64,000 nucleotides of DNA from Candidatus Woesearchaeota archaeon. GTDB lineage: Archaea; Nanobdellota; Nanobdellia; Woesearchaeales; JAAOYA01. This document shows positions 1,211-19,059 of this stretch, one piece after another. The notes under the pieces are model-generated. The model was not told where the DNA came from. It did not search any database and saw nothing but the letters and a program-made list of their open reading frames with translations. The number at the start of each line of letters is the position of its first letter. Positions within the stretch are counted from its first letter, which is position 1. The position numbers and the translations under genes were made by a program. The stretch spans positions 1 through 64,000 of the forward strand of contig JAAOYA010000008.1 in NCBI GenBank assembly GCA_018221105.1, given 5' to 3'.

Positions 1211-1272
1211 TTTCCCTATGTCTCGAGAAAAAAGAATAAGTTTAATAAAACTAAAGTTTTGGTTTTTTGAGT

Positions 1273-3618: not shown

Positions 3619-3622
3619 AAAA

Positions 3623-4945
3623 ATGACAATTATAACGCCCCTAACAAATATATGTAATCAACACTGTATTTATTGTTCTTCACATAATAGAAAAGAAAAT
3701 TCTAGAGAAGAAATCATAAAATCTATAATCGCTGAAGATAATCATTTAATTTTTAGTGGAGGAGAAACAACGCTTGCCAAAAATTTATTTAAGTATTTAT
3801 CAAAAGCTAAAAAAAAAGATTTATTTATTGAACTACAAACAAATGGCGTTACAAGTTCTTATTTTTCTTTTGCAAAAAAACTTGTTTCTTCAAAAATAGA
3901 TCTTTTTAATGTGTCTTTTCCTTCATTTAATTCAGAAACTTATCAAAAAATTACTAAAACTTTTTATTACGATAAATGTGTTAAAGGTATCAAAAACATA
4001 ATAGGTTTAAAAGGAAATGTTAGAATAACTAATGTTATCAATAATCTAAATTATAAAGAGCTTCCTGACTTAGTACGATTTGTAAAAAAAGAATTTAGTG
4101 GATTAAACTTATTAGAACTAAATTTTGTAAAAGGTGTTGGTCTTGCAAAAAATAATAAAGAAGTTATCCCAAAACATAAAGAAATTAGTAAATATTTAGT
4201 TGAAGCTCTTCGTTTTTGTTTGAATCAAGAAATAAATGTTATTGTTGATCACATTCCTCTTTGCTACTTAAAAGGTTTTGAAGATTTAAGTGTTGATTTT
4301 CAAAAAATAGTAAATAATAAAGATAAGACTTTCTTAGATGAAAAAATTAAGATAAAAAAATGCAAAGATTGTGATATTAAAAATTTTTGTACAGGTATCA
4401 GAAAAGACTATTATGAATTATATAAAGAAGAAGTTAATCCCGTCTCAACTATTTTTAATATTGATGATATTTCAGAAAATATTAGTAAAGAAAAAGATTT
4501 ATTAAAAAAAAGGTTCGATTTCTTTATAAAATATGACATTCCTTTTCAATTGATCAACTATCCTTTATGTATTTTTAGAAGTTATAAAAAATATGTTAAG
4601 AAAACAAAAGATTTTAAAAAGCCAAACAGTTGTAATGAATGTCGATACTTAAAAGAATGTGCAGGAATTCCAAAAAAATATTTTGAAAAAAATGGTTCTT
4701 CTGAATTTATTGCCATTAACGAAAAAGCTTTTTTAACTAACAGAGAAAAATGTATTCTTAGTATACTTAATTATAAGAATGATTTAACTACAAAAGAAAT
4801 TTTTTCTTTAACATCAAAGTTTAATATTTGTGCTGATTGTTCTTCTAGTGATAATAGCATTATCGTAGCTAGAAAACTTGAAAAAAAAAATAAACTTAGT
4901 AAAAAATTAACAAAAAAAGGGTATGTGTGGAGCTTAAAAAAATGA
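3623..4945 (+). CDS. Radical SAM protein with duplicated C-terminal Cys module and winged-helix tail
   Basis: Starts 4 nt after the preceding stop; 440 aa. CNQHCIYC (C11, C15, C18) and SGGE mark the radical SAM core. The C-terminal auxiliary motif of this paralog family occurs twice: IPLC followed by CKDCDIKNFCTG, then YPLC followed by CNECRYLKECAG about 85 residues later. The second copy has no radical SAM core of its own. The last 70 residues (REKCILSIL...TTKEIFSL...ARKLEKKNKL...GYVW) look like a winged helix. A likely history is fusion to the C-terminal half of a neighbouring paralog. Its last base overlaps the next gene in an ATGA junction. Substrate unknown. Confidence 0.85.
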   Translation: MTIITPLTNICNQHCIYCSSHNRKENSREEIIKSIIAEDNHLIFSGGETTLAKNLFKYLSKAKKKDLFIELQTNGVTSSYFSFAKKLVSSKIDLFNVSFPSFNSETYQKITKTFYYDKCVKGIKNIIGLKGNVRITNVINNLNYKELPDLVRFVKKEFSGLNLLELNFVKGVGLAKNNKEVIPKHKEISKYLVEALRFCLNQEINVIVDHIPLCYLKGFEDLSVDFQKIVNNKDKTFLDEKIKIKKCKDCDIKNFCTGIRKDYYELYKEEVNPVSTIFNIDDISENISKEKDLLKKRFDFFIKYDIPFQLINYPLCIFRSYKKYVKKTKDFKKPNSCNECRYLKECAGIPKKYFEKNGSSEFIAINEKAFLTNREKCILSILNYKNDLTTKEIFSLTSKFNICADCSSSDNSIIVARKLEKKNKLSKKLTKKGYVWSLKK

Positions 4946-6189
4946 AAGATATACGAGAAGATTTTCCAATTTTAAATAAAAAAATAAATGGTAAAAGACT
5001 TATTTATTTTGATAATGCTTGTTCTATTCTTAAACCGAAAAGTGTTATTAATGCCATAAATTATTATTATACACATTTAGGTGCTTGTGCGGGGGAAAGA
5101 ACTTCTTATTCTATAAGTAGGAAAACCGATGAGTTATGCGAGAAAAGTAGATTTAAAACACAAAAATTTATTGGTGCTAAGTCTGCTTCTGAGATTATAT
5201 GGACAAAAAACGCCACTGAATCTATTAATTTAATAGCTAATTCTCTTGATTATTCTAAAAGAAACAAAATTATTCTTAGTAGTAATTCTCATCATAGTTT
5301 ATTGTTGCCTTTTTATGAGCAAATTAAAAAAAAGAAAATTAAATTAAAAATCATTGATTGTAATAAAAACGGCCAAATATCCTCTGAAAAATTAAAAGAA
5401 GTTGTTGATAATAAAACAGCTTTGGTCGGAATTACTCATGCTTCAAATGTTACTGGGAGAGTTGAGGATTTAAAAAGTTTTTGTGAAATCTCTCAAGATA
5501 AAGGAGCATTAGTTTTAAGTGATAGTTCACAATTCGTTAGCCATCATAAATTAGATGTATTAAAAAATAATGTTGATTTCTTGGCTTTTTCAGCTCATAA
5601 ACTTGGAGGTCCAACAGGCCTTGGAATTCTTTATGGAAAAGAAGAAGCTTCAAAGAATTTATCTAATTTTATTGTTGGAGGCAACACTATCAAGACAGTT
5701 GATTATTTTAATAATTCTTTAAGTGTAAATTATTCTAATCAACCTAAAAGATTTGAAGCCGGATTACAAAATTATTCTGGGATAATTGGATTTGGAGAAT
5801 TAGTTAAATATTTAGAAAAAGTAGGATTGGGTAATATAGAAGAATATGAAAAAATACTAAGTGCTTATTTCTTAAAAAAAATAAGTTCTTTAAAAGATGT
5901 TATAGTTTTTGATGACTCAAATAATAAAATTAGAAACCCTACTTTTTCTTTTAAATTAAAAAAAGATGTTTCCCCTAAAGATTTTAGCATTTATCTAAAT
6001 GAGTTACCTAAAAATGAATTTGCAATTAGAACAGGAACTCATTGCGCTAATCCATTACATCAAGCCTTAGGCATGGATTATAAGAAAGGGGAAGGAAGTA
6101 TTAGGGCGTCTCTTTTCGCGTATAATACAAAAGAAGAAATTAATTTATTTTTTGAAGCTCTAAGTAGTTTTTTAGATTTAATAAGATGA
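4942..6189 (+). CDS. SufS-like cysteine desulfurase (class V aminotransferase)
   Basis: PLP enzyme predicted to take sulfur from cysteine as a persulfide. ATG 4942 overlaps the upstream stop (ATGA) and gives MKDIREDFPIL, the usual SufS start; an in-frame GTG at 4927 is less likely. Visible motifs are YFDNAC near the N-terminus, THASNVTG, SDSSQ in place of the usual DGAQ, the PLP lysine in SAHKLGGPTG, and the catalytic Cys in RTGTHCANP. Length is about 415 aa, as in SufS. No SufU, SufE or scaffold gene is nearby. Embedded among radical SAM genes and translationally coupled on both sides, it may supply sulfur for the clusters or for sulfur insertion into the product; that is inference. Confidence 0.88.
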   Translation: MKDIREDFPILNKKINGKRLIYFDNACSILKPKSVINAINYYYTHLGACAGERTSYSISRKTDELCEKSRFKTQKFIGAKSASEIIWTKNATESINLIANSLDYSKRNKIILSSNSHHSLLLPFYEQIKKKKIKLKIIDCNKNGQISSEKLKEVVDNKTALVGITHASNVTGRVEDLKSFCEISQDKGALVLSDSSQFVSHHKLDVLKNNVDFLAFSAHKLGGPTGLGILYGKEEASKNLSNFIVGGNTIKTVDYFNNSLSVNYSNQPKRFEAGLQNYSGIIGFGELVKYLEKVGLGNIEEYEKILSAYFLKKISSLKDVIVFDDSNNKIRNPTFSFKLKKDVSPKDFSIYLNELPKNEFAIRTGTHCANPLHQALGMDYKKGEGSIRASLFAYNTKEEINLFFEALSSFLDLIR

Positions 6190-7091
6190 AAAAAGAAAAA
6201 AGTGAAGTAAATTTTTTTGATATTATGAGTAGTTATAAATGTAATCAAAATTGTTTATTTTGTTCTGTAGAATATCAAAAGAGAAAAATGCAAAGAAGCA
6301 CTTTTGATATCAAAAAGGATGTTTTAGAAGCTAAAAAAGAAGGAATAAAAAATATTGGTTTTAGTGGAGGAGAACCAACATTAAGAAAAGATATTTTTGA
6401 ATTATCACGTTTTGCAAAAAAAGAAGGTTTTAAATTAATAAGATTACAAACAAATGGTATATTATTAGCATATGATAATTATTGTAATAAATTAGTTGAT
6501 TCTGGAATTAATTATTTTAAGATATCAATACATTCTCACATTCCAGAAATACATGATTATTTAACACAAACAAAAGGAAGTTTTAAACAAACAAACAAAG
6601 CTATACAAAATCTTATTGAATTAAATCAGCCTGTAGAACTTAATTATGTTATAAGTAAACATAATTATAAATTTATTCCCCAGTTTGTTGAGTATTTTAG
6701 TAACAAAGGAATTAGTAAATTTTGTTTTATTTATCAAATTTATTGTGGCAATGCGTATGATAATAAAAGAATTATTAGTGTAAAGATAAGTGAAATTACT
6801 CCTTTTCTAAAAGAAGCTCTTAACATAATTGATGATTATGATTTAGACAAAGGTATAGTTTTTAACATCCCTTTTTGTTTATTACCAAAATACCATGAGC
6901 GGTGCGTTCAGATTTTTAATACTAAGGTTTCAACCCCTGAAAAAATAATGCAAAATGTTGATCTTGATGGAAAGGAAGACAAAATAAAATTTGATAGGTG
7001 TAAAAATTGCAAGTATGAAAAAAAATGTTATGGTGTTTGGAAAACTTACGTTAAACTATTTGGAGAAAAAGAATTCAATCCTATAAAATGA
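6186..7091 (+). CDS. Radical SAM protein (MoaA-like core, PFC/CxxC auxiliary motif)
   Basis: 301 aa, coupled to the desulfurase gene by an ATGA overlap. CNQNCLFC (C19, C23, C26), SGGEPT and TNG motifs mark the radical SAM core. The paralog-family signature LTQTKGSF.QTNKAIQNL follows. The C-terminal cluster site is IPFC, then CKNCKYEKKCYGVWKTY, ending at EFNPIK. This is the simplest architecture in the operon and the best template for the family. No peptide-recognition (RRE-like) domain is evident. Substrate unknown. Confidence 0.86.
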   Translation: MKKEKSEVNFFDIMSSYKCNQNCLFCSVEYQKRKMQRSTFDIKKDVLEAKKEGIKNIGFSGGEPTLRKDIFELSRFAKKEGFKLIRLQTNGILLAYDNYCNKLVDSGINYFKISIHSHIPEIHDYLTQTKGSFKQTNKAIQNLIELNQPVELNYVISKHNYKFIPQFVEYFSNKGISKFCFIYQIYCGNAYDNKRIISVKISEITPFLKEALNIIDDYDLDKGIVFNIPFCLLPKYHERCVQIFNTKVSTPEKIMQNVDLDGKEDKIKFDRCKNCKYEKKCYGVWKTYVKLFGEKEFNPIK

Positions 7092-7993
7092 ATAAAAAAA
7101 AAATTGGTTTAAATGCAATTCATAGAAAAAATAATTATAGTTTTATACCTATTATTTTTAAATGTAATGATAATTGTATTTCTTGTATTGTTGAAAAAAA
7201 TAAAAGGAACAAATTAAGAACTCCTACTTTAAAAAATATTAAAGAAGACATAGATAGGATAGCAAAATACTCAACTCATTTAGAGATAAATGGCGGGGAA
7301 CCCACCTTAAGAGAGGACATATTAAAAATAATCTCTTATGCTCATTCTAAACCAACAATTAAACACCTTTCTTTATTAACAAATACTAGAATGTTATCTT
7401 ATAGTTCTTTAGTTAAAAAACTTGCTAATTTTCATAAATTAAAAATTGTGACAACTCTTTATGGTCATGATAGTAAAACTCATAATTCAATTACTAGAAA
7501 TCCTGAGAGTTTTAATCAAAAACTAAAAGGGATAAAAAACATAATAAAAGAAAATATTGAATTAGAATTAAGAATATTAGTTCATAAAATGAATTATTTA
7601 GATATTAATAATATTTCTAAGTTCATAATTTCAAATTTTAATCCTAACAATTTTTCATCTATTATTTTTATGAGTCCAAAAATGACTGGGGAAGCAAAGA
7701 ATAATAAGAATGCTATTCACATTTCAATTAAAAAAAGTATTAAAGAACTAATTCAGGCTATTAAAATATTAGAAAAAACTGGTTTTAACATCACTCTTAG
7801 ACATTACCCTCTTTGTGTATTGCCTAATAAATTATGGAAATATGCATCTAGTGTAACCGCTGAAGAAACAGAGATATTTTTTCCTAAAAAATGTGATTTT
7901 TGTACTCAAAAAAAATCTTGTTCCGGGATTTGGAAAAGTTATTATGACCTCTACAAGGATTATGAATTAAAACCAATAAAAAATGAAAAATAA
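7088..7993 (+). CDS. Radical SAM protein, divergent paralog
   Basis: 301 aa; ATGA overlap with the preceding gene. CNDNCISC (C26, C30, C33) follows a longer N-terminus than in its sisters; NGGEPT replaces the usual SGGEPT. The family features remain: SITRNPESF.QKLKGIKN, YPLC, then CDFCTQKKSCSGIWKSYYDLY. All cysteines for two clusters are present, so it should be active. Sequence divergence from its neighbours argues for a distinct substrate or step. Function unknown. Confidence 0.85.
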   Translation: MNKKKIGLNAIHRKNNYSFIPIIFKCNDNCISCIVEKNKRNKLRTPTLKNIKEDIDRIAKYSTHLEINGGEPTLREDILKIISYAHSKPTIKHLSLLTNTRMLSYSSLVKKLANFHKLKIVTTLYGHDSKTHNSITRNPESFNQKLKGIKNIIKENIELELRILVHKMNYLDINNISKFIISNFNPNNFSSIIFMSPKMTGEAKNNKNAIHISIKKSIKELIQAIKILEKTGFNITLRHYPLCVLPNKLWKYASSVTAEETEIFFPKKCDFCTQKKSCSGIWKSYYDLYKDYELKPIKNEK

Positions 7994-8891
7994 AAAAATA
8001 AAAAAATCTGTTATATTTATGGGATATTCATGCAACAATAAATGCGTTTTTTGTTGTAATGAGAATAAAAGAAATATAAAAGAGAAGTCTTTTGATCAAA
8101 TTAAAAAAATATTGATCAAATTAAAAAAAGAAGGTTACACTTATTTAGAACTTATTGGGGGGGAACCAACAATTAGAAAAGATTTTTTAAAAATAATAAG
8201 ATTAGCAAAAAAGTTAAGTTTTGAAACAATAATGTTTGCTACTAATGGAAGAATGTTATCGAACTATGATTTTGCAAAGAAAGTTATTGATGCTGGAGTA
8301 AATCATATAGTTTTTTCAATTCATGGGCACACTAAAGAATTACATAATCAATTAACCCAATCTCCGAAAAGTTTTGAACAATTAATTAAGGGCATTACTA
8401 ATCTTAAAAAATTAGGTTTTACAAATATTGGATCAAACACTACGATAGTAAAACAAAATTGTGATTATCTTAAAAGAATTGGCGAATTAATTTATAATTT
8501 AGGAATTAAAAATGCTGAATTTATTTTTGTTGATCCAACACATGGCGCGCCTAATCACAATTTTGAAACATTAGTTCCCAATTATGAAGATTGTTCTTCC
8601 CAGATAAACAAATTATTAGAATTTGCTACAAATAATAATTTAAACTATTTTAATATTAGATATTATCCTCTTTGTTTTATTGATAAAAAATATCATGATA
8701 AGATCAGTGAAATAAATGAGGTTGAAGTTTTTGATGTCTCTCATTTAGCTCCTGATTATAATAATATTGATGCGTTAAAATCAAGAAAAATAGTATCAAG
8801 AAAAAAAATTGAGAAGTGTAATAATTGTGATTATTTTAATATCTGCGAGGGTTATTGGGTAGAATATATTAAAAATAAAAAAATAAAATGA
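7983..8891 (+). CDS. Radical SAM protein, paralog
   Basis: 302 aa, starting inside the upstream gene with an 11-nt overlap (ATGAAAAATAA). CNNKCVFC (C17, C21, C24), IGGEPT and TNGRML mark the core. HGHTKELHNQLTQSPKSF, YYPLC and CNNCDYFNICEGYWVEY follow; the CEG.W signature is close to that of the first gene of the operon, so this copy is among the less diverged. Coupled to the next gene by ATGA. Substrate unknown. Confidence 0.86.
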   Translation: MKNKKIKKSVIFMGYSCNNKCVFCCNENKRNIKEKSFDQIKKILIKLKKEGYTYLELIGGEPTIRKDFLKIIRLAKKLSFETIMFATNGRMLSNYDFAKKVIDAGVNHIVFSIHGHTKELHNQLTQSPKSFEQLIKGITNLKKLGFTNIGSNTTIVKQNCDYLKRIGELIYNLGIKNAEFIFVDPTHGAPNHNFETLVPNYEDCSSQINKLLEFATNNNLNYFNIRYYPLCFIDKKYHDKISEINEVEVFDVSHLAPDYNNIDALKSRKIVSRKKIEKCNNCDYFNICEGYWVEYIKNKKIK

Positions 8892-10717
8892 AAAATATTA
8901 CTGTATTATCCTCAAAAAAATGTAATAATAGATGTTTAAATTGTCCGATAGACTTAGAAATCGGAATAAAAAGGCATGCTGACTCTTTTGATTTTATAAA
9001 AAATAAAATCAAATCTTTAAATCTAAAAAAAGATGATGAGGTTACTCTTAGTGGAGGAGAACCAACAATAAACAAAGCATTTATAAAAATTGTTATATAC
9101 CTCCAAAATAAGTTTAATAAAGTAAATATCTTAACCAATGGAAGATTATTAAGTAATTCTGTTTTTTTAAAAAAAATACAAAAATATTTTAATAAAAAAA
9201 AAATTTTTTTTCATATCTCTTTGTATAGCACGAATCCTGAAATAAATAATAAACTAACCCGGTCTAATAGTTTAAATCAAACTTTAGAAGGTATTAAAAA
9301 ATTATCTTTAAATAGTTTTAATTTTAAAATACGCATCCCTATATTAAGAAGTAATAGTTATTCATTATATGTAACTATTAACAAATTGAGCAAGTTATAT
9401 CCTTTTACAGAGTTCGTTTTTATTTATCCTGACATAATGGGAGAACTAAAGAAAAACAAAAAAGAAGTTCTCAAAATAAATGATCTAAAAATATTGTTCT
9501 CGACTTTTGATTATTTGATTAATAATAACATAAGATTCTTCATATATCACTTACCGTTTTGTTTATTACCCTATAAGTATTGGGGGTATTTATTAAAATC
9601 AAAATCAGACATTCGATTAGTTAATTATAGTAAATGCCTAACTTGTCATTTAGAAGATATTTGTCCCAAGATTTCCAAAACTAATAAAGTATTAATTAAT
9701 CAAGATGAATTGACTTCTTTTTCAAAAAAAGACATTCGCGACTATATAAAAAAAAATGGTTTTTTCTATAGACTTAAACCATTAGAAAAAAAAATTGATT
9801 CATTTCAACTAAGTAAAGTTCAAGAAATAAATTCATCGTTTCCTGATGTTTTAGCAGTTTCAAAAAATATAAAACCCTTAACAAGGATCTCTTTTAATAG
9901 TTTGTCAAGGGTTAAAATTATTGAAAAAGTACTTCCTAAAGATATTCTTCTTAGTTTTAGTAAGCTTAAAATTTTGCACAATAATTCAGAAAGCTTTAAC
10001 ATAAATGATCCTAGGAATGGATTAGTTGATATATACTCTAAAAGAAAAGGGACCATTTATGGTTACTTATCCAAATCTTCCTCTCTTTTAGAGTTTACTT
10101 CAAAAAATGATCCTGAATTAGAATTAAAGCCTTCCTATAATGAAGTAAAAAATTTTGCTTCTAATTTAGGCTATCCTTCTTGTTGTGTTGAATACTGGTT
10201 AAAAAAAGAAAATATTCATATTGATATGGCAACTTTTTTTTCTAAAGAAAAAAAGTCCTTTTTATTTAACAATTTCTTAGTTCCCTATTCCAATTATTAT
10301 CTTAGTTTCCACCATCCTTGTAGTTATGAATGCAAAAAAACTTTATTATACAACAAGAGAATATATAATTCAATAAAAAAATATAATGAAAATTTTGGAG
10401 TAGAGATTAAGAAAGTTTTAACAAAACCCCTTCTAATATTATTAAATTCTAAAGAACGTTCTACCTGGGAAACATTAGATAGTAGGCTCACTGTAATTTT
10501 TAATGGAATTCAAATTAAAAACAAAATATACTATTATGGCTTCTATTTTTTTGAAGAAGCATATAAAAAGAATCAATTCCACTATTTTAAAGATATCTTA
10601 TTAAAGTCTAATAATATTTTTCTTGACAATGAAAAGATTTATTTTTATTTAAATGATAAATTAATAAATGAAAAAAAATTGGTAGGTGAAAAAGTATACA
10701 TGTTAGATTTTGACTAA
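8888..10717 (+). CDS. Radical SAM protein fused to a Cys-rich C-terminal module (DUF483-like)
   Basis: 609 aa, twice the length of its sisters. Residues 1-265 are the family core: CNNRCLNC (C12, C16, C19), SGGEPT, LPFC and CLTCHLEDIC. The remaining 340 residues are a separate module containing GYPSCCVEYW and, about 50 residues later, HHPCSYEC, a CC plus H-PCS-C arrangement that reminds me of archaeal DUF483 proteins. It could be a metal or substrate site. The family match is from memory and should be tested by profile search. ATGA overlap at the start; the next gene begins 1 nt after its stop. Confidence 0.8.
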   Translation: MKNITVLSSKKCNNRCLNCPIDLEIGIKRHADSFDFIKNKIKSLNLKKDDEVTLSGGEPTINKAFIKIVIYLQNKFNKVNILTNGRLLSNSVFLKKIQKYFNKKKIFFHISLYSTNPEINNKLTRSNSLNQTLEGIKKLSLNSFNFKIRIPILRSNSYSLYVTINKLSKLYPFTEFVFIYPDIMGELKKNKKEVLKINDLKILFSTFDYLINNNIRFFIYHLPFCLLPYKYWGYLLKSKSDIRLVNYSKCLTCHLEDICPKISKTNKVLINQDELTSFSKKDIRDYIKKNGFFYRLKPLEKKIDSFQLSKVQEINSSFPDVLAVSKNIKPLTRISFNSLSRVKIIEKVLPKDILLSFSKLKILHNNSESFNINDPRNGLVDIYSKRKGTIYGYLSKSSSLLEFTSKNDPELELKPSYNEVKNFASNLGYPSCCVEYWLKKENIHIDMATFFSKEKKSFLFNNFLVPYSNYYLSFHHPCSYECKKTLLYNKRIYNSIKKYNENFGVEIKKVLTKPLLILLNSKERSTWETLDSRLTVIFNGIQIKNKIYYYGFYFFEEAYKKNQFHYFKDILLKSNNIFLDNEKIYFYLNDKLINEKKLVGEKVYMLDFD

Positions 10718-10718
10718 A

Positions 10719-11636
10719 ATGATGGCTAATAATAACAAAGTATTAGAGTTGCATTTAACAAATAACTGTAATAATAATTGTGAATTTTGTTCTTTTGGAG
10801 AAAAAGAAGATCGGGATATTGACTTAAAAGTTTTGGATGAAATATTGTCTAAAGAAAAAATTAATAAAATCGCTCTTTCTGGTGGAGAGCCAACTATTTC
10901 AAAAAAAATTTTTCAAGTTTTAGAATACTTAAAAAATAAAAGATATTCTGTCGGAGTAGCAACAAATGGTAGGATGTTATCCAACGATGCTTTTTTTAAT
11001 AAATTAAAAGATTACAATATTAATCACTTCTATGTTAGTCTTTTATCTTATAAAAGAGAAACTCATGATAAATTGACAAGAACAAAAAATAGTTTTGATC
11101 AAACAATGAAAGGAATTAAGAAATTAGTAAAAAATAATCAAAAGATAATTATTGATTACGTGATAACTAAAGATAATGTTAAAGATTTATATGAAACAGT
11201 AAAAATGATTCATGATATGTCGCCAAAAATTATGGTTAAGTTAAGGCTTGTAGAACCTGTTGGTTTTGCTAAAAAAAAAATTTCTTCATTGTTTCCCGCA
11301 CTAAGATTATTAGAAGAAGAATTAAGTAAAATAAAAAGTTATTCAAATAAAAAAAATGTTAAGGTTCTGGCAATACCTCTTTGCTTGTTTAATTCAAAAT
11401 TAATAAATTCAGATTATGATTACATTAAACAAAATTTAGATGATTTTTCTTTGTTTAAACTAAGTGATGAAAATATTAAAAAAGTCAAAATTAAAGAAAA
11501 CTTTTTAAAAAAAGTTGATTTTTGTGCAAGTTGTCGCCTAAGAAAAAGATGTGTCGGTATTTATACTGATGTTGAAGATGAATTTATTAATTTTTTTAAA
11601 AATAAGAAATTAACAAAAAATGATTATGAAAAATAA
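10719..11636 (+). CDS. Radical SAM protein, paralog
   Basis: ATG 10719 (or the adjacent ATG 10722) lies 1 nt after the preceding stop and gives about 305 aa; the upstream TTG at 10710 is less likely. CNNNCEFC (C17, C21, C24), SGGEPT, TNGRML and LTRTKNSF.QTMKGIKKL show the family core. IPLC and CASCRLRKRCVGIY form the auxiliary site. Its 3' end overlaps the next gene. Substrate unknown. Confidence 0.85.
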   Translation: MMANNNKVLELHLTNNCNNNCEFCSFGEKEDRDIDLKVLDEILSKEKINKIALSGGEPTISKKIFQVLEYLKNKRYSVGVATNGRMLSNDAFFNKLKDYNINHFYVSLLSYKRETHDKLTRTKNSFDQTMKGIKKLVKNNQKIIIDYVITKDNVKDLYETVKMIHDMSPKIMVKLRLVEPVGFAKKKISSLFPALRLLEEELSKIKSYSNKKNVKVLAIPLCLFNSKLINSDYDYIKQNLDDFSLFKLSDENIKKVKIKENFLKKVDFCASCRLRKRCVGIYTDVEDEFINFFKNKKLTKNDYEK

Positions 11637-12999
11637 TATAAAAATAGTTTTGGTTAGTCTAAATTATACTAGTAGATCTCTTGGTTCTGCTACTCCTTCT
11701 ACTGCTTTGGCTTATCTGTCTACTTTTTTAAGAAAAAAAGGATATGATGTGTCTTGTATTGATATTAACCACTTCAAAGAAGTTTTTGATTATTTAAGAG
11801 AAAAAAATATTACTAAAGCAATAAAAAGGATATCTAAAAAAGTAAGTTCTTTAGACCCTTTTTTAGTAGGTATAAGCTCTTTTTCTTCTACTATAACCTT
11901 TGCTATGGAATTGGCTAAAGAAATTAAATTAAACAATAAAAGCATTTACACAGTTTTAGGTGGTGTTGGTGCAGCTACTAAACCAGAACTAATATTAAGA
12001 GAATGTGAGAATCTAGATTTTATAATTAAAGGTGATGGTGACTCCTTTCCTTTATTAATTAATTCTCTGTTTCAAAGAAAAAAAATCGGGAATGTGAGCG
12101 GTGTTTGTTATATTAAAAATGGTAAGTATATAAAAAATAATGATTTATCTGTAGGTAAAGAAATTAACAATACTATCTTTGATTATGAAAGTTTTATAGA
12201 ATTACAAAGAATCACTCCTGGAATAACTACCTCTAGGGGTTGTATGTTTAAGTGTTCTTATTGTTCTGTCAATGTGGTACATACAAAATGTTTTCAATTA
12301 AAATCTGATATTGTTTTAAAGCAAGTTAATAAATTGATTAATATGTATTCTCCGAAAAATCTTCTTTTCCAAGATGATTCTTTACTAAATAATAAAATCT
12401 ATTTTAAAAAATTGATATCTAAACTACCCAAAAACTCTGCTGATTTTGCACTTTACGCGAGATTAGACCAAGTTAATCATGAAATAATAAAAGATTCGTA
12501 TGATTCTAATTTTCATAAGATCATGATGGGTATTGAAAGTTTTAATCCTATAAATCTCGCTTTTTTTAATAAGTCAATACCTTTAGAAAAGCTTTTTTCA
12601 ACTTTAAATTTATTAGATAAGTTTAATTTTAAAACAGAATTATCTTTTATTATAGGTACTCCTTATGATACTAAAGAATCTTTAGAGATAGAAAGAAAAG
12701 AGATTGAAAAAATAAAAATGAATCATTCTTCAAATGTAAAAATAGAACATAATATTTTAATTGCGTATCCGGGTACTAAGTTGTGGAATATGTATGAAAA
12801 TAAAGAAATAAGTCTTTTTAAAGCATTTGACATATTTAAAAAAGACGAGAAATTGAGTAAATACTCTTCTAACCCTTTTTTTTCTCCTTTTAATTTTGTC
12901 TTCGAAAATAAAAAAGTTCCCTCTCATATATTTAGAAATTATTTATTAGAGCATTTAAGAGAAATATCAAATATTACAAAAAGAATAAATCACAAATAA
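11626..12999 (+). CDS. B12-binding-type radical SAM protein (BchE/MiaB-like layout)
   Basis: Last gene of the operon. ATG 11626 overlaps the upstream stop as ATGAAAAATAA, the same junction seen at 7983; ATG 11620 is an alternative. About 457 aa. The first 180 residues form a Rossmann-like cobalamin-binding domain (STALAYLSTFLRKKGYDVSCIDIN, then LGGVGA and KGDGD). No DxHxxG base-off motif is seen, so any B12 would bind without that His. The radical SAM core starts at SRGCMFKCSYC, about residues 206-213. B12-radical SAM enzymes often methylate or rearrange unactivated carbons. It is distinct in family from the other members. It overlaps the convergent gene by 26 bp. Confidence 0.85.
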   Translation: MKNNIKIVLVSLNYTSRSLGSATPSTALAYLSTFLRKKGYDVSCIDINHFKEVFDYLREKNITKAIKRISKKVSSLDPFLVGISSFSSTITFAMELAKEIKLNNKSIYTVLGGVGAATKPELILRECENLDFIIKGDGDSFPLLINSLFQRKKIGNVSGVCYIKNGKYIKNNDLSVGKEINNTIFDYESFIELQRITPGITTSRGCMFKCSYCSVNVVHTKCFQLKSDIVLKQVNKLINMYSPKNLLFQDDSLLNNKIYFKKLISKLPKNSADFALYARLDQVNHEIIKDSYDSNFHKIMMGIESFNPINLAFFNKSIPLEKLFSTLNLLDKFNFKTELSFIIGTPYDTKESLEIERKEIEKIKMNHSSNVKIEHNILIAYPGTKLWNMYENKEISLFKAFDIFKKDEKLSKYSSNPFFSPFNFVFENKKVPSHIFRNYLLEHLREISNITKRINHK

Positions 13000-13498
13000 A
13001 TTTCCAATCATCTATTATTTCTGCAAAATCTTGGTATTGACAAACTCGAGTATCATTATTTAAAACTTTATTCTTAAATTCTTTATTTATTGTTAAAGAA
13101 CAAAAAGTTTTTTCTTTGTCGCTTAATTTATCTTCATAACATAAATTTATGTCATTTGCAGAAATTGCTTCACATAAAATTTTTCCAGTTTCCAAAGAGA
13201 TTTGTTTACATTCAAAGTTCTGAGTTGAAATAAATTTTATTAAGTAAAAAACAAATTCGCATTCTTTAACATCTCTCTCAGTATATTTATTCAATTCTGC
13301 GCATTTGGATATATCATTAGTTATTACTGATTCTTTTAAAAAATTTAATTTAGCTTGGCTGGCTATAGCGTCTTGTTTATAGATTTTAGAAGAGCTATAA
13401 TTTTCTTCTTTTTCGTATATAAAATTAAAAGAAAAATATGATATTATTAATACTATTAAAATTCCTACAATCAATATCAGATTTTTTATTTTTTTCAT
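12974..13498 (-). CDS. Membrane-anchored Cys-pair protein, distal gene of the Hxs-like operon
   Basis: 174 aa. MKKIK, then a hydrophobic helix (about residues 7-29), places the rest outside the cell. The exported part contains cysteines in repeated pairs (D(I/T)..C followed by C 8-15 residues later, about four times), suggesting a small helical, disulfide-stabilised fold. It lies 9 bp downstream of the His-Xaa-Ser precursor on the same strand, so co-expression is likely. It may be a partner, chaperone or anchor for the modified peptide. No family recognised. Its 3' end overlaps the end of the radical SAM operon by 26 bp. Confidence 0.72.
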   Translation of the reverse strand: MKKIKNLILIVGILIVLIISYFSFNFIYEKEENYSSSKIYKQDAIASQAKLNFLKESVITNDISKCAELNKYTERDVKECEFVFYLIKFISTQNFECKQISLETGKILCEAISANDINLCYEDKLSDKEKTFCSLTINKEFKNKVLNNDTRVCQYQDFAEIIDDWKFICDLFFL

Positions 13499-13507
13499 TT
13501 ATTTTAC

Positions 13508-13834
13508 TTAATCAAAATAAAATGCTGCCGAGTTATGGCTTCCGTGACTACCATGACTACCATGACTACCATGACTACCATGATCGTGCTGGTGTGTTCC
13601 AGCAACGTTTGGAGGAGTATTATAATTTATTCCTGAAGTGTTACAGTGTTCGTGATGTGTAGTAGCATCATTTCCAAGAGTTGTTGGAGGGCATGCTGCT
13701 TGCACTTGCAATGCTGAGACTGCGGCAACACTCAAGAAAATACCTGTTTTTAATAGTGCTTCCTTGCTAATTTTTCCTTCTTCACGCGTAAGAAAAGATT
13801 GTACTTTTTTTTTTATTTTTGGAAGTTTCAACAT
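13508..13834 (-). CDS. HxsA-like His-Xaa-Ser repeat precursor with class III-type signal peptide
   Basis: 108 aa; probable substrate of the downstream-acting maturase. The C-terminus has six consecutive His-Xaa-Ser units (five HGS, one HNS; residues 85-102) ending in SAAFYFD, the hallmark of HxsA peptides. A further His-rich stretch (THHEHC, THQHDH) and two cysteines (C48, C64) precede it. The N-terminus has a Lys-rich segment, then EEG(20)/K(21)-I-S(23)-K-E(25) and a hydrophobic stretch to residue 47. Gly at -1, Ser at +3 and Glu at +5 match archaeal class III (prepilin-type) signal peptides, and a prepilin peptidase heads this same operon. The likely product is an exported, modified, His-rich peptide or filament subunit. 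Known: bacterial HxsA is paired with HxsB/HxsC. Inferred: cleavage site and fate. Confidence 0.82.
   Translation of the reverse strand: MLKLPKIKKKVQSFLTREEGKISKEALLKTGIFLSVAAVSALQVQAACPPTTLGNDATTHHEHCNTSGINYNTPPNVAGTHQHDHGSHGSHGSHGSHGSHNSAAFYFD
13541..13588 (-). repeat. 9-bp tandem repeat encoding Gly-Ser-His units
   Basis: On the minus strand GGTAGTCAT repeats exactly four times, with one diverged copy (GGAAGC/CAC). It encodes the His-Xaa-Ser tract. Identical codons suggest recent expansion by slippage, so repeat number probably varies between strains. Confidence 0.9.
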
Positions 13835-13855
13835 TTTAAACGTTAAGTACTTAAA

Positions 13856-15229
13856 TTATTGCAGTTTTTCTTTTATAAAGTTTTCTTTTACTACCCAATC
13901 AAACTGTTTCATGTAAATTTTACACCTGTCAGTCTCGGATATTTTTGCTATTATGCTACCTTGTTCTGAATAATTACAAACTGGGCAAACACCACAGTAT
14001 GGTTTGTAAGCGCAACTATTACAAGTGTATTGATCATTTATTGAAGCTGCGCTTGTAGCACAGGCATTATCGCAAGTGAGCACTTCTTTATAATTATTTT
14101 CGTGCACGTTACCCAGTAAGAACAAGTCCTCAGTTAGTGTTCTTGCTTCATCACACGTATAAATATCTCCATTATACTGATACGCTAATTGTCCTATTGC
14201 AGCACCGCAAGGGCTTCTTAGCTCTAAATAGTTAGGTTCGAACTCAGTGCTTATCTTTTGAGTCATTAATCGTACCATTCGTTCATTGACAAAAACATCT
14301 TTTTTCTGTAATTCTTTGATGTACTCGACTCCTTTTTTCCAAAAGGCTAAGTATTCTTTTGCTGTGTAGCTAATAGCAGGCCAAGCTTTTTTTGCAAGGC
14401 CTAAATTGTTCAAAAATCTCAAGTGCACATCAAAAATTCCAAGCTTTACATATTCATCAATAATCTCTTTATGGTATGAAAGACTTTTTTTTGTAAGTGT
14501 TAATATGGCGTTTGCTCTACGATTAGAAATGTTTCTTTTTTCATATTCTTTATTGAATTTTTTTATCCATTTGATTACAGCGTCATAGTTACTGCCACCA
14601 GAATATTTTCTATTATGATCATGCAATTCTTTAGGGCCATCTAAAGAAGTGCATACGCTAACATTATTGTTAATTAAATAATTCATTTTTTGTTCATTCA
14701 TTACTGAAAAATTAGTGACTACTGTAAAAAGAACATTCTTTTTTGCTTTTTCGTTTTTTTTGTTTGCGTATTCTACAATATATTTTAAGACATCCCAGTT
14801 AAGAAATGGTTCTCCACCTTGAAATTCAATAGTAATATTATTGTTTGGGGATTGGAATATGAAATCAACTGTTTTTTTGGCTGTTTCTTTTGTCATGTCA
14901 AAAGATTTGTCAGCCATTGATTTGGCAGTAGCGTGACAGTAAACACAATTCATGTTGCAACGCAGTGTTATGACTATTATATGCAGTGAAGTTCCAAAAA
15001 ATAAGAAGTTATTGCGGTTTCTCAGTAATCTTACTGCTTCATCAATATTTGTTTTGTCAAGCAGTATTTCTCTTTCTAATAATTTTTCTTTTAGTTTTGC
15101 GTCAATATTATTTTGCTGCAATTTTTTGAATTCGTTTTCTGATAGAATACTATAACTTCCATGGTCTGTTGTCACAAAATATTTATCATCTAATTTTCTC
15201 ACTCTATAATTGTTTATTGTATAAGTCAT
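13856..15229 (-). CDS. hxsB: HxsB-like radical SAM/SPASM peptide maturase
   Basis: 457 aa. The N-terminal 90 residues contain FVTTDHGSYSILSENEFKKL, the precursor-handling segment typical of His-Xaa-Ser maturases. CNMNCVYC (C91, C95, C98), QGGEP and the core follow. The C-terminus is a full SPASM domain: CGAA, YTCDEART, LLGNV, then CNSCAYKPYCGVCPVC and a final DRCKIY, enough cysteines for two auxiliary Fe-S clusters. SPASM enzymes crosslink or epimerise ribosomal peptides; here the substrate should be the HxS precursor 22 bp downstream. ATG 15229 is 1 nt after the preceding stop. I see no HxsC homolog in the window, so this is a single-maturase variant. Confidence 0.87.
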   Translation of the reverse strand: MTYTINNYRVRKLDDKYFVTTDHGSYSILSENEFKKLQQNNIDAKLKEKLLEREILLDKTNIDEAVRLLRNRNNFLFFGTSLHIIVITLRCNMNCVYCHATAKSMADKSFDMTKETAKKTVDFIFQSPNNNITIEFQGGEPFLNWDVLKYIVEYANKKNEKAKKNVLFTVVTNFSVMNEQKMNYLINNNVSVCTSLDGPKELHDHNRKYSGGSNYDAVIKWIKKFNKEYEKRNISNRRANAILTLTKKSLSYHKEIIDEYVKLGIFDVHLRFLNNLGLAKKAWPAISYTAKEYLAFWKKGVEYIKELQKKDVFVNERMVRLMTQKISTEFEPNYLELRSPCGAAIGQLAYQYNGDIYTCDEARTLTEDLFLLGNVHENNYKEVLTCDNACATSAASINDQYTCNSCAYKPYCGVCPVCNYSEQGSIIAKISETDRCKIYMKQFDWVVKENFIKEKLQ

Positions 15230-15230
15230 T

Positions 15231-15446
15231 TTAGATAATGTTCTCGTTTTTCATAAGTCCCAAAACATAGTTAGAAAACTCTTCTTTTAATGGCTCTTCT
15301 AATGGCTCTTTTTGTAATAATTCAATTCCGAATTCATCATCAAGTATTGTTATTTTTGCAATGTGTTCGAAATCCTTTATTGCTTGACTGATTGCTTTTT
15401 TATCATAGAAGTTTTTGTTAAGGACTAATTTAATCTTTTTTTTCAT
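15231..15446 (-). CDS. Small HxsD-like protein
   Basis: 71 aa. The pattern LNKNFYDKKAISQAIKDFEHIA followed by LKEEFSNYVLGL resembles the HxsD fold (Y...AI..A...F, then EF.N) in shortened form. Starts within the end of the longer HxsD-like gene (17-nt overlap) and stops 1 nt before the maturase start, so all three are translationally coupled. Likely an accessory binding the precursor or maturase; that role is inference from the known Hxs gene set. Confidence 0.7.
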   Translation of the reverse strand: MKKKIKLVLNKNFYDKKAISQAIKDFEHIAKITILDDEFGIELLQKEPLEEPLKEEFSNYVLGLMKNENII

Positions 15447-15882
15447 CTTTTTGCCCGTATTTTTCTTCCCACGGTACGGCTATTCCTTCAGGGTCATCTA
15501 ATTCTTCATCGTCTTCTTCTAATTCATTTAATATCTCGTTATAATCTACTTCTTCATCATCATCCGGGATTATTGAAGGGTCATTTGTGAATAGCGCTCT
15601 TTGTAAAAGGTATTCCCTGATTGTTTTTGTTTGTGCTGCTCTGTGCTTATAATCAGCGTAATTTATTAATTCATTTAAAAATTCTCCGCCAAGCTTTTCT
15701 AAGTCTTGTTTTTGCTTAGGTTGTAATTTAACCAGTATTTCCTTTTTTAAATCACCATCTAATAACACGTATGCTTTATCTAAAAAAACGTATGCTGCAG
15801 AATAAATAATATCTAAAGGATAAAATTCAGGATTTACTTTAAGAACTACAGAACCATCTCTTACTTCTAATTTTTTATCCAC
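15430..15882 (-). CDS. hxsD: HxsD-like protein of the His-Xaa-Ser system
   Basis: 150 aa from GTG 15882, chosen because GGAGGG (15894-15889) lies 6 nt upstream. Residues 5-95 match HxsD: VLKVNPEFYPLDIIYSAAYV, LDKAYVLLDGD, GGEFLNELINYADY, then TIREYLLQRALF. The last 45 residues are very acidic (EED/DDEE runs) and end in a DPEGIAVPW segment. Together with the shorter paralog it gives two HxsD-like proteins in one operon. Probably cytosolic and needed for peptide maturation; exact activity unknown. Confidence 0.8.
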   Translation of the reverse strand: MDKKLEVRDGSVVLKVNPEFYPLDIIYSAAYVFLDKAYVLLDGDLKKEILVKLQPKQKQDLEKLGGEFLNELINYADYKHRAAQTKTIREYLLQRALFTNDPSIIPDDDEEVDYNEILNELEEDDEELDDPEGIAVPWEEKYGQKDEKKD

Positions 15883-15888
15883 ATTAAT

Positions 15889-15894
15889 CCCTCC
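15889..15894 (-). promoter_or_regulatory. Shine-Dalgarno site deciding the GTG start of the HxsD-like gene
   Basis: GGAGGG on the minus strand, 6 nt before GTG 15882. It overlaps the stop codon of the prepilin peptidase gene, so translation of the two is probably coupled. Confidence 0.7.
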
Positions 15895-17063
15895 TAACTG
15901 AACAATTTCATCAATAAAGTTTTAAATAATATTAAAAGGTTTCCTTTCACGATTACAGTCATCAAAACACCTAAGAATATTAAATGTGCAAATGGCATTA
16001 CTTGACTTACATTGATTGTCTTAAACCCTAATTTTTTAATAGTGTTGACTTGCTCTAGTGTTAGTCCTTCAGCTTCTTGCTTTATAAAAATCTCTTTTTC
16101 AGTAGAGTTCTTAGGCTTTGCGAGGTAATAACTGCCTTTTTGGTGTATTAATTGAAATGCAGGATTTTTTTTGAGAGTTTCTAATTCGCCCTCTGTCGGT
16201 CTGCGGTTTGTTTTTATGATATCATCACTTAATATCATTTTAGGCTTTAACTCATCAATGTTTAATTGTTTAGTGAATAGCTCACTTCCTAACTTTGATA
16301 AACTTCCCCTGAACAAACTCATCAAAAACTTCCAGGTGAACAAGAACATTAAAAAAGTTAGTAGAAAGTTCCAAGAGTATACTGATTTGTCAACGCTAAA
16401 ACGAATTATTGCAATTAAACTCATTAAATATATCATTTTATCGCCTAATTTTTTCTTAACATTTGAAAAAACAAGCATTGTAAGTACTAATCGTAACATA
16501 TAACTTTGTGATAATCCCATCATAGCTAGTAATAGTTCTAAAACCCAAAAAATTGCAAAAAAGGAAATGATAGATTCAATTAATGTCATTGGTTTGAAAA
16601 ACTCTTCTAAAAATTCTTTTAATACTTTTTTTAGGTCTTTAAAGCGTGTTTTAAAAAGTAATAATCCTAACATAAAAAATAAGCCTACAACAAAAATGTT
16701 TACTAATAGTGTTATTGATGGTATCCATTGTTGATATCCTGCTGAGTACACTGTTAATGGTAGTAATGCTGTGTATGCTATGAATAGTTTTCCGTCTCCT
16801 GCGCTCCATATGTTGTAGTGCCACAGCCCGTAGCCTATTAGTGTTGCGAATGTTATGTTAGTGATTAGTTCTAACACGTAAATAGTGTTAATGCCTGTTG
16901 TTAGATTGTAATAGATAATTAGTCCTATGTTGGTTATAATGGCGTAGATTATTGCCGATAAAATCCATTTGTTGCGTATCTTGCCAAATTTTATGTCTTC
17001 AATGCTTGTTATCGTGCCTAGGGCTAGTATTGCTGGCAAAAAAAACCATATGATATTTATCAT
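15894..17063 (-). CDS. Archaeal class III prepilin peptidase, first gene of the Hxs-like operon
   Basis: 389 aa integral membrane aspartic protease that cleaves pilin-type signal peptides at the inner face of the membrane. The two catalytic Asp regions are visible: SIEDIKFGKIRNKW near residue 25 and WSAGDGKLF (GxGD-like) near residue 95. Several hydrophobic segments follow, then a soluble stretch (about 260-345) and a last membrane helix with MPFAHLIF, as in archaeal FlaK/EppA-like enzymes. It is long for the family (usually 230-350 aa). Only 11 bp separate it from the HxsD-like gene, so it is probably dedicated to the HxS precursor. The second copy at 18202 may serve general pilins. Confidence 0.85.
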   Translation of the reverse strand: MINIIWFFLPAILALGTITSIEDIKFGKIRNKWILSAIIYAIITNIGLIIYYNLTTGINTIYVLELITNITFATLIGYGLWHYNIWSAGDGKLFIAYTALLPLTVYSAGYQQWIPSITLLVNIFVVGLFFMLGLLLFKTRFKDLKKVLKEFLEEFFKPMTLIESIISFFAIFWVLELLLAMMGLSQSYMLRLVLTMLVFSNVKKKLGDKMIYLMSLIAIIRFSVDKSVYSWNFLLTFLMFLFTWKFLMSLFRGSLSKLGSELFTKQLNIDELKPKMILSDDIIKTNRRPTEGELETLKKNPAFQLIHQKGSYYLAKPKNSTEKEIFIKQEAEGLTLEQVNTIKKLGFKTINVSQVMPFAHLIFLGVLMTVIVKGNLLILFKTLLMKLFS

Positions 17064-17700: not shown

Positions 17701-18205
17701 AGTTTGTGAGTTAGCAAAAAGCGGTAAATTGCTTTACAGTGATGATTATGTTGTTGCAGCGATGCATCCAAAACCAACTGTTAAAGGTCACGTGTTAGTG
17801 TTTGCAAAGGAGCATCATCAAATTATTACTCAAGTTCCACAAGCAGTTTTGTCACAATTGTTTGATAAGGCTAAAATGATGGCTGGTTTTGTTTTTGACG
17901 CCTTGCAGGCTGAGGGCACTAATATAATAGCCCCTAACGGCACTATCGCTGGTCAGACTGACGCACATTTTGCTATGCATGTGTTGCCGCGTTTTGCAAA
18001 TGATGGTTTGAATTTTGATTGGCAGCCAAAACAATATCCTGAAGAAAAACTTGATGAGCTCTTAGGACTCTTAAATGAAGTACAAGTTGGCGAGGAAAGT
18101 TTTGCTGATCAAGAAATAATACTTGATACTGAACCTAAAGAGGTTAGTTCTACTGTGCCGCCTGATAAGAATTATCAATTAAAGCATTTAAGACGTATTC
18201 CTTAA
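17693..18205 (+). CDS. Second HIT-family protein lacking the catalytic histidine
   Basis: 170 aa from ATG 17693, which overlaps the upstream stop; an in-frame ATG at 17678 is less likely. CEVC and KGHVLVFAKEHH give the HIT fold. The triad AGQTDAHFAMHVLPR has H92, A94 and H96, so the nucleophile is Ala. GDGLNF/NDGLNF follows the triad in both copies, so the pair arose by duplication. Both lost the same residue. A heteromeric pseudo-enzyme is a reasonable guess. Ends 4 bp inside the convergent prepilin peptidase gene. Confidence 0.82.
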   Translation: MCEVCELAKSGKLLYSDDYVVAAMHPKPTVKGHVLVFAKEHHQIITQVPQAVLSQLFDKAKMMAGFVFDALQAEGTNIIAPNGTIAGQTDAHFAMHVLPRFANDGLNFDWQPKQYPEEKLDELLGLLNEVQVGEESFADQEIILDTEPKEVSSTVPPDKNYQLKHLRRIP

Positions 18206-19059
18206 ACAATTAATTCTATAAATCTTAATAGTATATTGTCAAAAAATAGTGTTAACAAATATGCTATTAGAAAGCTTGGAACAAATGGTATTCCTTCTTT
18301 TACTAACACGTTTTTTATTTTGTGCTTTTTTAGTGTGTTGATTTGTTGTTGTGATATTCCTAAGTCTTTTGGTCCGACGATTATTTTATTGTTGATTTTT
18401 ACTGTTTTTGCTATCCAGTCTCCGATTGTTAGTTTTGATGGTGGTAGTGTTGTGTACATGCAAGTGTTTTCTACTGCTTTGACGTACAACCATAAGTAAT
18501 GGATTGTAGCTGATAATATGGTCATTATCGCGGTGCTGATTTGTAATGCTTTGTTTGGCGTTGTTAATGTGATGATTAACAGTATTATTGTTATGCTTAA
18601 TGCCCAATATTTTGAGTGTTTTGCTTTTGTTGTTTTAGCGATTTTTTTTATTTCAGCATAAACTTTTTTATGATTTTTTATTGCTAAAGTTGTGCTCCAG
18701 GCCAGTCCATAGAATGCTCCTGCTATTAGCATGTTGGCTAGTAGACTTATCAGAAATGAGTTTGGTGTTAGTTGCAGTCCTAGCATTGCACCTAGTCCCA
18801 TTAGCATTTTTGAGTCTCCGCCGCCCCATTGGCCGCCGTAGTACATTAATACTGCTATTATGAAGAATACTCCAAATCCTGCTAGTCCTTCTAGTAGTGG
18901 TGTGAAGCTTGTTGTGTTGATGCTTTGTAGGCCTCTTATGCCAAAACCTGTGATTATTAATCCGTAGTTTAGCCAGTCTGGTACTTCTCGTGTTTTGATG
19001 TCTGTGATTGTTGCTATTATTAGTGCTGTTATTGTTATTGTTGTGATTATTGCTAGCAT
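18202..19059 (-). CDS. Class III prepilin peptidase, second copy
   Basis: 285 aa membrane aspartic protease. Catalytic regions are ITDIKTREVPDW (Asp near residue 21) and GGQWGGGDSKMLMG (GGGD), a clean match to archaeal FlaK/PibD-type enzymes. The C-terminal part has the family's GPKDLGIS..QI..LKK...IKNVLVKEGIPFVPSFL segment. Shorter and more canonical than the copy at 15894, so probably the housekeeping enzyme for pilins or archaellins. No pilin gene is seen beside it. Confidence 0.88.
   Translation of the reverse strand: MLAIITTITITALIIATITDIKTREVPDWLNYGLIITGFGIRGLQSINTTSFTPLLEGLAGFGVFFIIAVLMYYGGQWGGGDSKMLMGLGAMLGLQLTPNSFLISLLANMLIAGAFYGLAWSTTLAIKNHKKVYAEIKKIAKTTKAKHSKYWALSITIILLIITLTTPNKALQISTAIMTILSATIHYLWLYVKAVENTCMYTTLPPSKLTIGDWIAKTVKINNKIIVGPKDLGISQQQINTLKKHKIKNVLVKEGIPFVPSFLIAYLLTLFFDNILLRFIELIV

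Follow-up and report, generated by a model that had tools for sequence, protein, structure and literature searches.

His-Xaa-Ser (Hxs) systems (TIGR03976-TIGR03979), which Haft and Basu reportedly described by bioinformatics only, comprise the radical S-adenosylmethionine (SAM) proteins HxsB and HxsC, HxsD, and an HxS-repeat precursor, HxsA. To our knowledge, neither their product nor its export route has been established. Classical clusters (loci L197-L199) exhibit the order hxsD-hxsB-hxsC-hxsA (or hxsA2 first), and HxsA carries a plain signal peptide. The classical hxsDBCA cluster is widespread on plasmids, with HxsB present on 327 of them, 303 from Klebsiella, mostly conjugative. In the plasmid-borne clusters of Aeromonas, Nostoc, and Klebsiella, HxsA has a plain signal peptide, and neither a leader ending in Glu-Glu-Gly (EEG) nor a nearby prepilin-type aspartic peptidase of family A24 was found. 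Here, we analysed the first 64,000 nucleotides (the window) of contig JAAOYA010000008.1 of a Candidatus Woesearchaeota archaeon (genome of 1.15 Mb in 11 contigs), in which six genes on the minus strand (12974-17063) encode an Hxs variant with both a leader and an A24 peptidase. This peptidase is dedicated to the Hxs system.

A prepilin-type peptidase dedicated to the Hxs system

The initial annotation proposed that this run encodes a prepilin peptidase, two HxsD-like proteins, an HxsB-like enzyme, a precursor with six HxS units, and a cysteine-rich protein. All six open reading frames (ORFs) were confirmed at the positions proposed. From the peptidase to the cysteine-rich protein, they are separated by an 11 bp gap, a 17 bp overlap, and gaps of 1, 21, and 9 bp. 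With regard to the Hxs family profiles, HxsB (449.6 bits for TIGR03978, cut-off 370) and the short HxsD-like protein (63 bits for NF038315, cut-off 41) pass, the long HxsD falls narrowly below (48.5 bits for TIGR03976, cut-off 50), and the precursor is also below the cut-offs. The peptidase passes the archaeal C-terminal domain profile Arc_PepC (24.8 bits, cut-off 23.4) and remains below Peptidase_A24 (19 bits, cut-off 26.5). The enzyme retains both catalytic aspartates, D23 and D90 (the latter in SAGDGK), which are conserved. None of the NCBIfam models matched this peptidase. A weak likeness of 15894-16244 to Sec61 gamma (profile E 0.0036) was set aside as probably due to chance, Pfam giving Arc_PepC for the C-terminus.

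The association of the peptidase with HxsB is widely conserved in relatives, so neither of the refutations named in the initial annotation, missing Hxs family matches and an unconserved neighbourhood, holds. The named HxsB loci nearest to that of the window belong to Woesearchaeota and other DPANN archaea, and the order peptidase-HxsD-HxsD-HxsB-precursor is a module conserved across DPANN. An A24 peptidase is present in 29 of the 36 archaeal stretches containing HxsB, at a distance of at most 1.6 kb in 23 of those 29. Among 60 genomes of the order, 16 encode both a strong HxsB and a strong Hxs-type A24 peptidase, 2 only HxsB, 1 only the peptidase, and 41 neither (Fisher p 1.7e-11), and the corresponding numbers for 371 genomes of the phylum at fixed thresholds are 27, 7, 8, and 329 (p 1.3e-27), these p-values ignoring shared ancestry. 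After reading the discordant loci, the distribution in the 371 genomes became 34, 3, 5, and 329, as seven genomes moved to the joint class: G210, G229, and G152 exhibit a diverged or truncated HxsB beside the peptidase, and G108, G302, G255, and G292 a weaker or truncated peptidase beside HxsB. In G014 (L202) and G387 (L207), the peptidase adjoins a precursor, apart from HxsB; in G022, it lies about 5 kb from a precursor, and no strong HxsB was found in that locus (L200). One contig among the loci (L037/L099) is titled Candidatus Aminicenantes bacterium, yet our genome set places it in the archaeal order of the window; it is apparently mislabelled or part of a mixed bin.

Most genomes additionally carry a housekeeping A24 peptidase of about 290 amino acids, from which the Hxs-linked enzymes are clearly separated. 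In an IQ-TREE phylogeny, a branch supported at 100/98 separates all 47 Hxs-linked A24 peptidases, archaeal and bacterial, from the housekeeping copies. The Hxs-type enzymes exhibit xAGD[AG]K where the housekeeping copies mostly exhibit GGGDSK, and a C-terminal motif, approximately PFAxxIFxG, is common to the bacterial and archaeal Hxs-linked enzymes.

Contrary to what the initial annotation had implied, the coupling is not restricted to archaea. HxsA could be recognised in 31 bacterial loci, of which 24 exhibit the leader motif F-L-x-x-E-E-G↓K (the arrow marks the predicted cut), and 7, all from Myxococcota and with soluble or Tat-like N-termini, have none. Whole-genome searches detected an Hxs-type A24 peptidase in 24/24 of the genomes with the EEG leader and in 0/7 of those without it. 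In cultured Clostridium drakei SL1 (L121, 6461-11380), six genes lie on one strand in the order hxsA-hxsD-hxsD-A24-hxsC-hxsB. In several other bacterial loci (L209, L210, L212, L213, and L215), the Hxs-type A24 gene lies inside an array of HxsC-like radical SAM genes, apart from HxsB. The co-occurrence, the separate clade, and the presence of the enzyme in every sampled bacterial genome whose HxsA has the EEG leader identify the peptidase as a genuine component of these systems.

The precursor leader and its predicted processing

The N-terminal region of the precursor reads PKIKKKVQSFLTREEG↓KISK, and its C-terminus comprises six HxS units, five HGS and one HNS. The precursor matches HxsA4 (NF038313) over nearly its full length, with 42.3 bits for a cut-off of 55, and reaches 28 bits for HxsA (cut-off 121.65) and 25.2 for HxsA3 (cut-off 65). 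As all of these scores are below the curated cut-offs, we call it HxsA-type and not HxsA, although its HxS repeats adjoin HxsB. No other precursor was found in the host genome.

Gly20 is the sole invariant column in the precursor alignment (A2). In a logo of 58 anchored precursors, position -1 comprises 54 Gly and 4 Ala, the anchor itself having demanded one of these two residues; E(-3) is present in 58/58, which backs the register of the anchor, and position -2 is mostly E or D. The archaeal consensus is F-L-x-x-E-[ED]-G↓K-I-[ST]-K, and the bacterial one is F-L-x-S-E-E-G↓K-[IM]. Behind the predicted cut, Lys is common at +1, +4, and +9, and a hydrophobic stretch, some 17 residues long, begins at about +7. 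Just past this stretch, an AxA motif is found in 23 of the 58 precursors for 6.9 expected, an approximately threefold enrichment, and most precursors exhibit AxA or [AVSTGC]xA there. Based on the invariant column and the logo, Gly20 is the likeliest cleavage site, as initially proposed.

The same annotation had assigned the N-terminus to the class III signal peptides. The residues on which this was based, Gly20, Ser(+3), and Glu(+5), are literally present in the window precursor. Nevertheless, only the Gly/Ala at -1 is shared with class III signal peptides in general: basic residues at -2/-3, a hydrophobic stretch close after the cut, and a conserved Glu(+5) are not found, Glu(+5) being present in a minority of the 58 precursors. 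We know of no archaeal prepilin that is acidic at -2/-3. With its acidic -2/-3 positions and unconserved Glu(+5), the N-terminus differs from an ordinary signal peptide of class III.

Structural models of two maturation proteins bear on how the leader may be recognised. The AlphaFold2 (AF2) model of HxsB has a predicted local distance difference test (pLDDT) score of 91, and its N-terminus is modelled with a bbb-a-a-a topology (b, strand; a, helix), that of the recognition element (RRE) of ribosomally synthesised and post-translationally modified peptides (RiPPs). The long HxsD exhibits a bb-a-bb-a fold, with a core pLDDT above 90. A PqqD-like RRE was ruled out for HxsD on the basis of this fold, the closest structures in the PDB being Rpb11-like and without significance.

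We consider it probable, all evidence combined, that the locus encodes a leader-bearing, RiPP-like variant of the Hxs system in which the dedicated A24 peptidase cuts the leader at the glycine, followed by Sec-type export. The leader, PKIKKKxxxFLxxEEG, would be bound at the N-terminus of HxsB by its RRE-like domain, and the two HxsD-type proteins would act as accessory subunits. HxsB and the HxsC-like enzymes of the neighbouring array, all present in the window, would modify the His/Ser-rich tail in the cytosol. The membrane-embedded peptidase would then cut after the glycine of E-[ED]-G↓K and remove the leader, leaving the Lys-rich segment, the hydrophobic stretch, and often AxA, which resemble an ordinary Sec-type signal. 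With this remaining signal, the modified tail could be moved to the cell surface and either anchored or released. Most probably, the pathway yields a modified, His-rich peptide displayed at the surface. In two loci, HxsA-type leaders are fused to long proteins (L059, 4104-5741, 545 aa; L076, 12676-14241, 521 aa) that contain STT or HSQ/HSS repeats followed by a further domain, which suggests that the modified stretch may be a linker within a larger surface protein.

Other roles of the peptidase can be envisaged. If HxsA were a true pilin, as supposed in the initial annotation, type IV pilus machinery would incorporate it into a fibre after A24 cleavage, which would account for the peptidase, the Gly(-1), and the hydrophobic stretch behind it. 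Pilus platform genes do exist in the host genome. However, their T2SSF matches are found only on contig C5, at 230-232 kb of contig C2, and, weakly, on contig C10, with none at the cluster, and the housekeeping A24 copy can serve these distant genes. The lysines and the late start of the hydrophobic stretch, the acidic -2/-3, the unconserved Glu(+5), and the AxA enrichment also argue against a pilin, as do a Patescibacteria genome (L060) and a spirochaete genome (L061) that encode an Hxs-type A24 peptidase and in which no second A24 was found. Assembly like a pilin is thus quite unlikely. It is highly improbable that the substrates are instead the ordinary class III surface proteins (KGQVTLF...) encoded beside many archaeal Hxs clusters. 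Proteins with the KGQVTxFxxxG motif are indeed encoded near the Hxs genes in L023 (18104), L024 (110), L030 (540), L031 (1), L032 (1), and L038 (15726), usually beside a very large secreted protein, but relatives of them are present in 49/60 genomes, most of which have no Hxs-type A24 peptidase, and the housekeeping enzyme can process them. In addition, the distribution of the Hxs-type peptidase follows that of HxsB and, among bacteria, that of the EEG leader. We therefore rejected these proteins as the cause of the extra peptidase.

The EEG motif could also serve only for recognition by HxsB and HxsD, with export by Sec, cleavage by signal peptidase I at AxA, and an A24 enzyme that clears the leftover signal peptide or has a regulatory role. 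The frequent AxA or [AVSTGC]xA, the plain signal peptides of classical HxsA, and the fact that A24 enzymes belong to the GxGD proteases and are mechanistically akin to signal peptide peptidases are in line with this. Against it, the most conserved residue is a glycine at the kind of position where A24 enzymes require one, and HxsA proteins without the motif go with an absent peptidase. Overall, we regard this scheme as unlikely.

Several observations also weigh against the favoured reading, in which the A24 peptidase removes the leader and Sec-type export follows. The EEG motif may serve for binding instead of marking a cut site, the acidic -2/-3 departs from known archaeal prepilins, and Glu(+5) is not conserved. 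G041 and G127 encode HxsB, and no Hxs-type A24 peptidase was found in them; conversely, G139 and G201 encode an Hxs-type peptidase without any Hxs gene nearby. On the HxsB tree, the bacterial contrast of 24/24 with 0/7 reduces to one or two independent events and does not represent 31 independent cases; L055 and L056, which have both leader and peptidase, nest inside the leaderless, peptidase-less Myxococcota group there, which is the expected direction. Finally, no match to PF00717, the type I signal peptidase profile, was found in the host genome, a profile that also misses three of the archaeal controls, so the final AxA cut is unsupported in this genome. With regard to the gene context of the two peptidases that lack Hxs neighbours, A24 is followed in G201 (L218, 5309-6358) and G139 (L220, 8457-9515) by a pair of related proteins of about 490-540 aa and a small membrane-anchored protein.

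The convergent radical SAM array and other features of the window

A plus-strand operon (1267-12999) converges on the Hxs run, and its last gene overlaps the end of the run by 26 bp. It encodes seven HxsC-like radical SAM proteins (1267-11636), a cysteine-desulfurase-like enzyme, and a B12-binding radical SAM protein. The initial annotation reported that HxsC is not seen here. No protein of the window exceeds the curated HxsC cut-off, the best score being 174.6 for 267.9; nevertheless, the seven paralogues indicate that HxsC is not absent but diverged and multiplied. Up to nine radical SAM proteins in the window may act on one precursor. A similar convergent array adjoins the Hxs run of L023, which belongs to another family.

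The protein encoded after the precursor has the membrane anchor and the cysteines ascribed to it, and no sequence homologue of it was found among the compared loci. Proteins that resemble it, with undetectable homology, follow the precursor in L023, L029, and L031. The features of the window are collected in Table 1.

Table 1. Coordinates of the Hxs genes, the convergent array, and the housekeeping peptidase in the window
Position	Strand	Feature	Basis
1267..3618	+	HxsC4-like radical SAM protein (N-terminal) fused to a HemN/HemW-like radical SAM domain	159 bits
3623..4945	+	HxsC-like radical SAM protein	TIGR03977, 108 bits (cut-off 267.9)
4927..6189	+	Class V aminotransferase/cysteine-desulfurase-like enzyme	PF00266, 326.8 bits
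6186..7091	+	HxsC4/HxsC-like radical SAM protein	134/125 bits
7088..7993	+	Best HxsC candidate	TIGR03977, 174.6 bits, positions 23-291 of 292 (cut-off 267.9)
7983..8891	+	HxsC4-like radical SAM protein	142 bits
8888..10717	+	HxsC-like radical SAM protein, C-terminal extension weakly resembling DUF483	Profile matches
10710..11636	+	HxsC-like radical SAM protein	122.7 bits
11620..12999	+	B12-binding radical SAM protein at the end of the array	PF02310 and PF04055
12974..13498	-	Membrane-anchored protein after the precursor, transmembrane segment and 8 Cys in 174 aa	ORF translation
13508..13834	-	HxsA-type precursor, 108 aa, with leader and hydrophobic region before six HxS units	HxsA4, 42.3 bits
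13772..13780	-	Codons of Glu19-Gly20-Lys21, where A24 cleavage is predicted behind Gly20 (13775-13777)	Leader logo
13856..15229	-	HxsB radical SAM/SPASM maturase, 457 aa, RRE-like N-terminal domain	TIGR03978, AF2 model
15231..15446	-	HxsD-like protein (short), 71 aa	NF038315, 63 bits; alignment
15430..15882	-	HxsD (long), 150 aa	TIGR03976, 48.5 bits; alignment; AF2 model
15894..17063	-	Hxs-linked A24 (prepilin-type) aspartic peptidase, 389 aa, archaeal A24 C-terminal domain	Profiles, tree
18202..19059	-	Housekeeping A24 peptidase (FlaK-like, GGGDSK), outside the system, contrast copy	Profiles, motif, tree

Comparison with known systems

One large branch of the Hxs systems, in archaea and bacteria, thus has its own A24 peptidase, which provides a precise candidate processing site, E-[ED]-G↓K. 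On balance, we lean towards the broader view that a radical SAM RiPP-like pathway of DPANN archaea and many bacteria has a GxGD-type A24 enzyme as its dedicated leader peptidase, so that a His/Ser-rich surface peptide would be radically modified, freed of its leader, and exported in linked steps. If true, this would add a protease class to those listed for RiPP leader removal and would show prepilin peptidases working outside pili. C. drakei SL1, as a cultured host carrying the whole six-gene cluster, is suited to such a study. The Hxs systems and the HxsA4/HxsC4 families were already known; as far as we searched, the A24 peptidase has not been described as an Hxs component. The open literature, subscription papers being outside the search, yielded nothing on archaeal Hxs systems or on prepilin peptidases in RiPP pathways.

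Like the classical Hxs systems, the locus comprises an HxsB above the cut-off, HxsD-type proteins, an HxS-repeat precursor beside HxsB, and HxsC-like enzymes nearby. In contrast to them, it adds the dedicated A24 peptidase, an EEG leader before the hydrophobic segment, a second HxsD-type protein, and the radical SAM array. Of the named families, the NCBIfam families HxsA4 and HxsC4 (NF038313 and NF038332) come closest to the precursor and to several array enzymes (at most 159 bits), but no member in the window reaches the curated cut-offs (55 and 500, respectively). The Hxs-linked peptidase shares with the archaeal prepilin peptidases FlaK, PibD, and EppA the A24 family, two aspartates in a GxGD-type context, and the archaeal C-terminal domain. 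It differs from them in its separate clade and motif, in its length of mostly 340-400 aa, in its tie to Hxs genes, and in its occurrence in bacteria, and the window copy is below the Pfam A24 cut-off.

Among the maturases CteB, TigE, and SuiB, the RRE-bearing thioether maturase CteB (5wgg) is the best PDB match for the HxsB model, which aligns with it over its whole length (E 2.3e-25) at 22% identity and has an N-terminal domain of RRE-like topology. A 2023 review of RiPP leader peptidases lists cysteine, serine, and metalloproteases and two others, with no aspartic or prepilin-type enzyme (PMC10885120). A parallel in that review is EpeP, an M50 intramembrane protease of the epipeptide pathway whose gene likewise accompanies that of a radical SAM peptide maturase and which is thought to couple cleavage to export (PMC10885120); EpeP, however, is a metalloprotease, whereas the Hxs-linked A24 enzyme is an aspartic peptidase.

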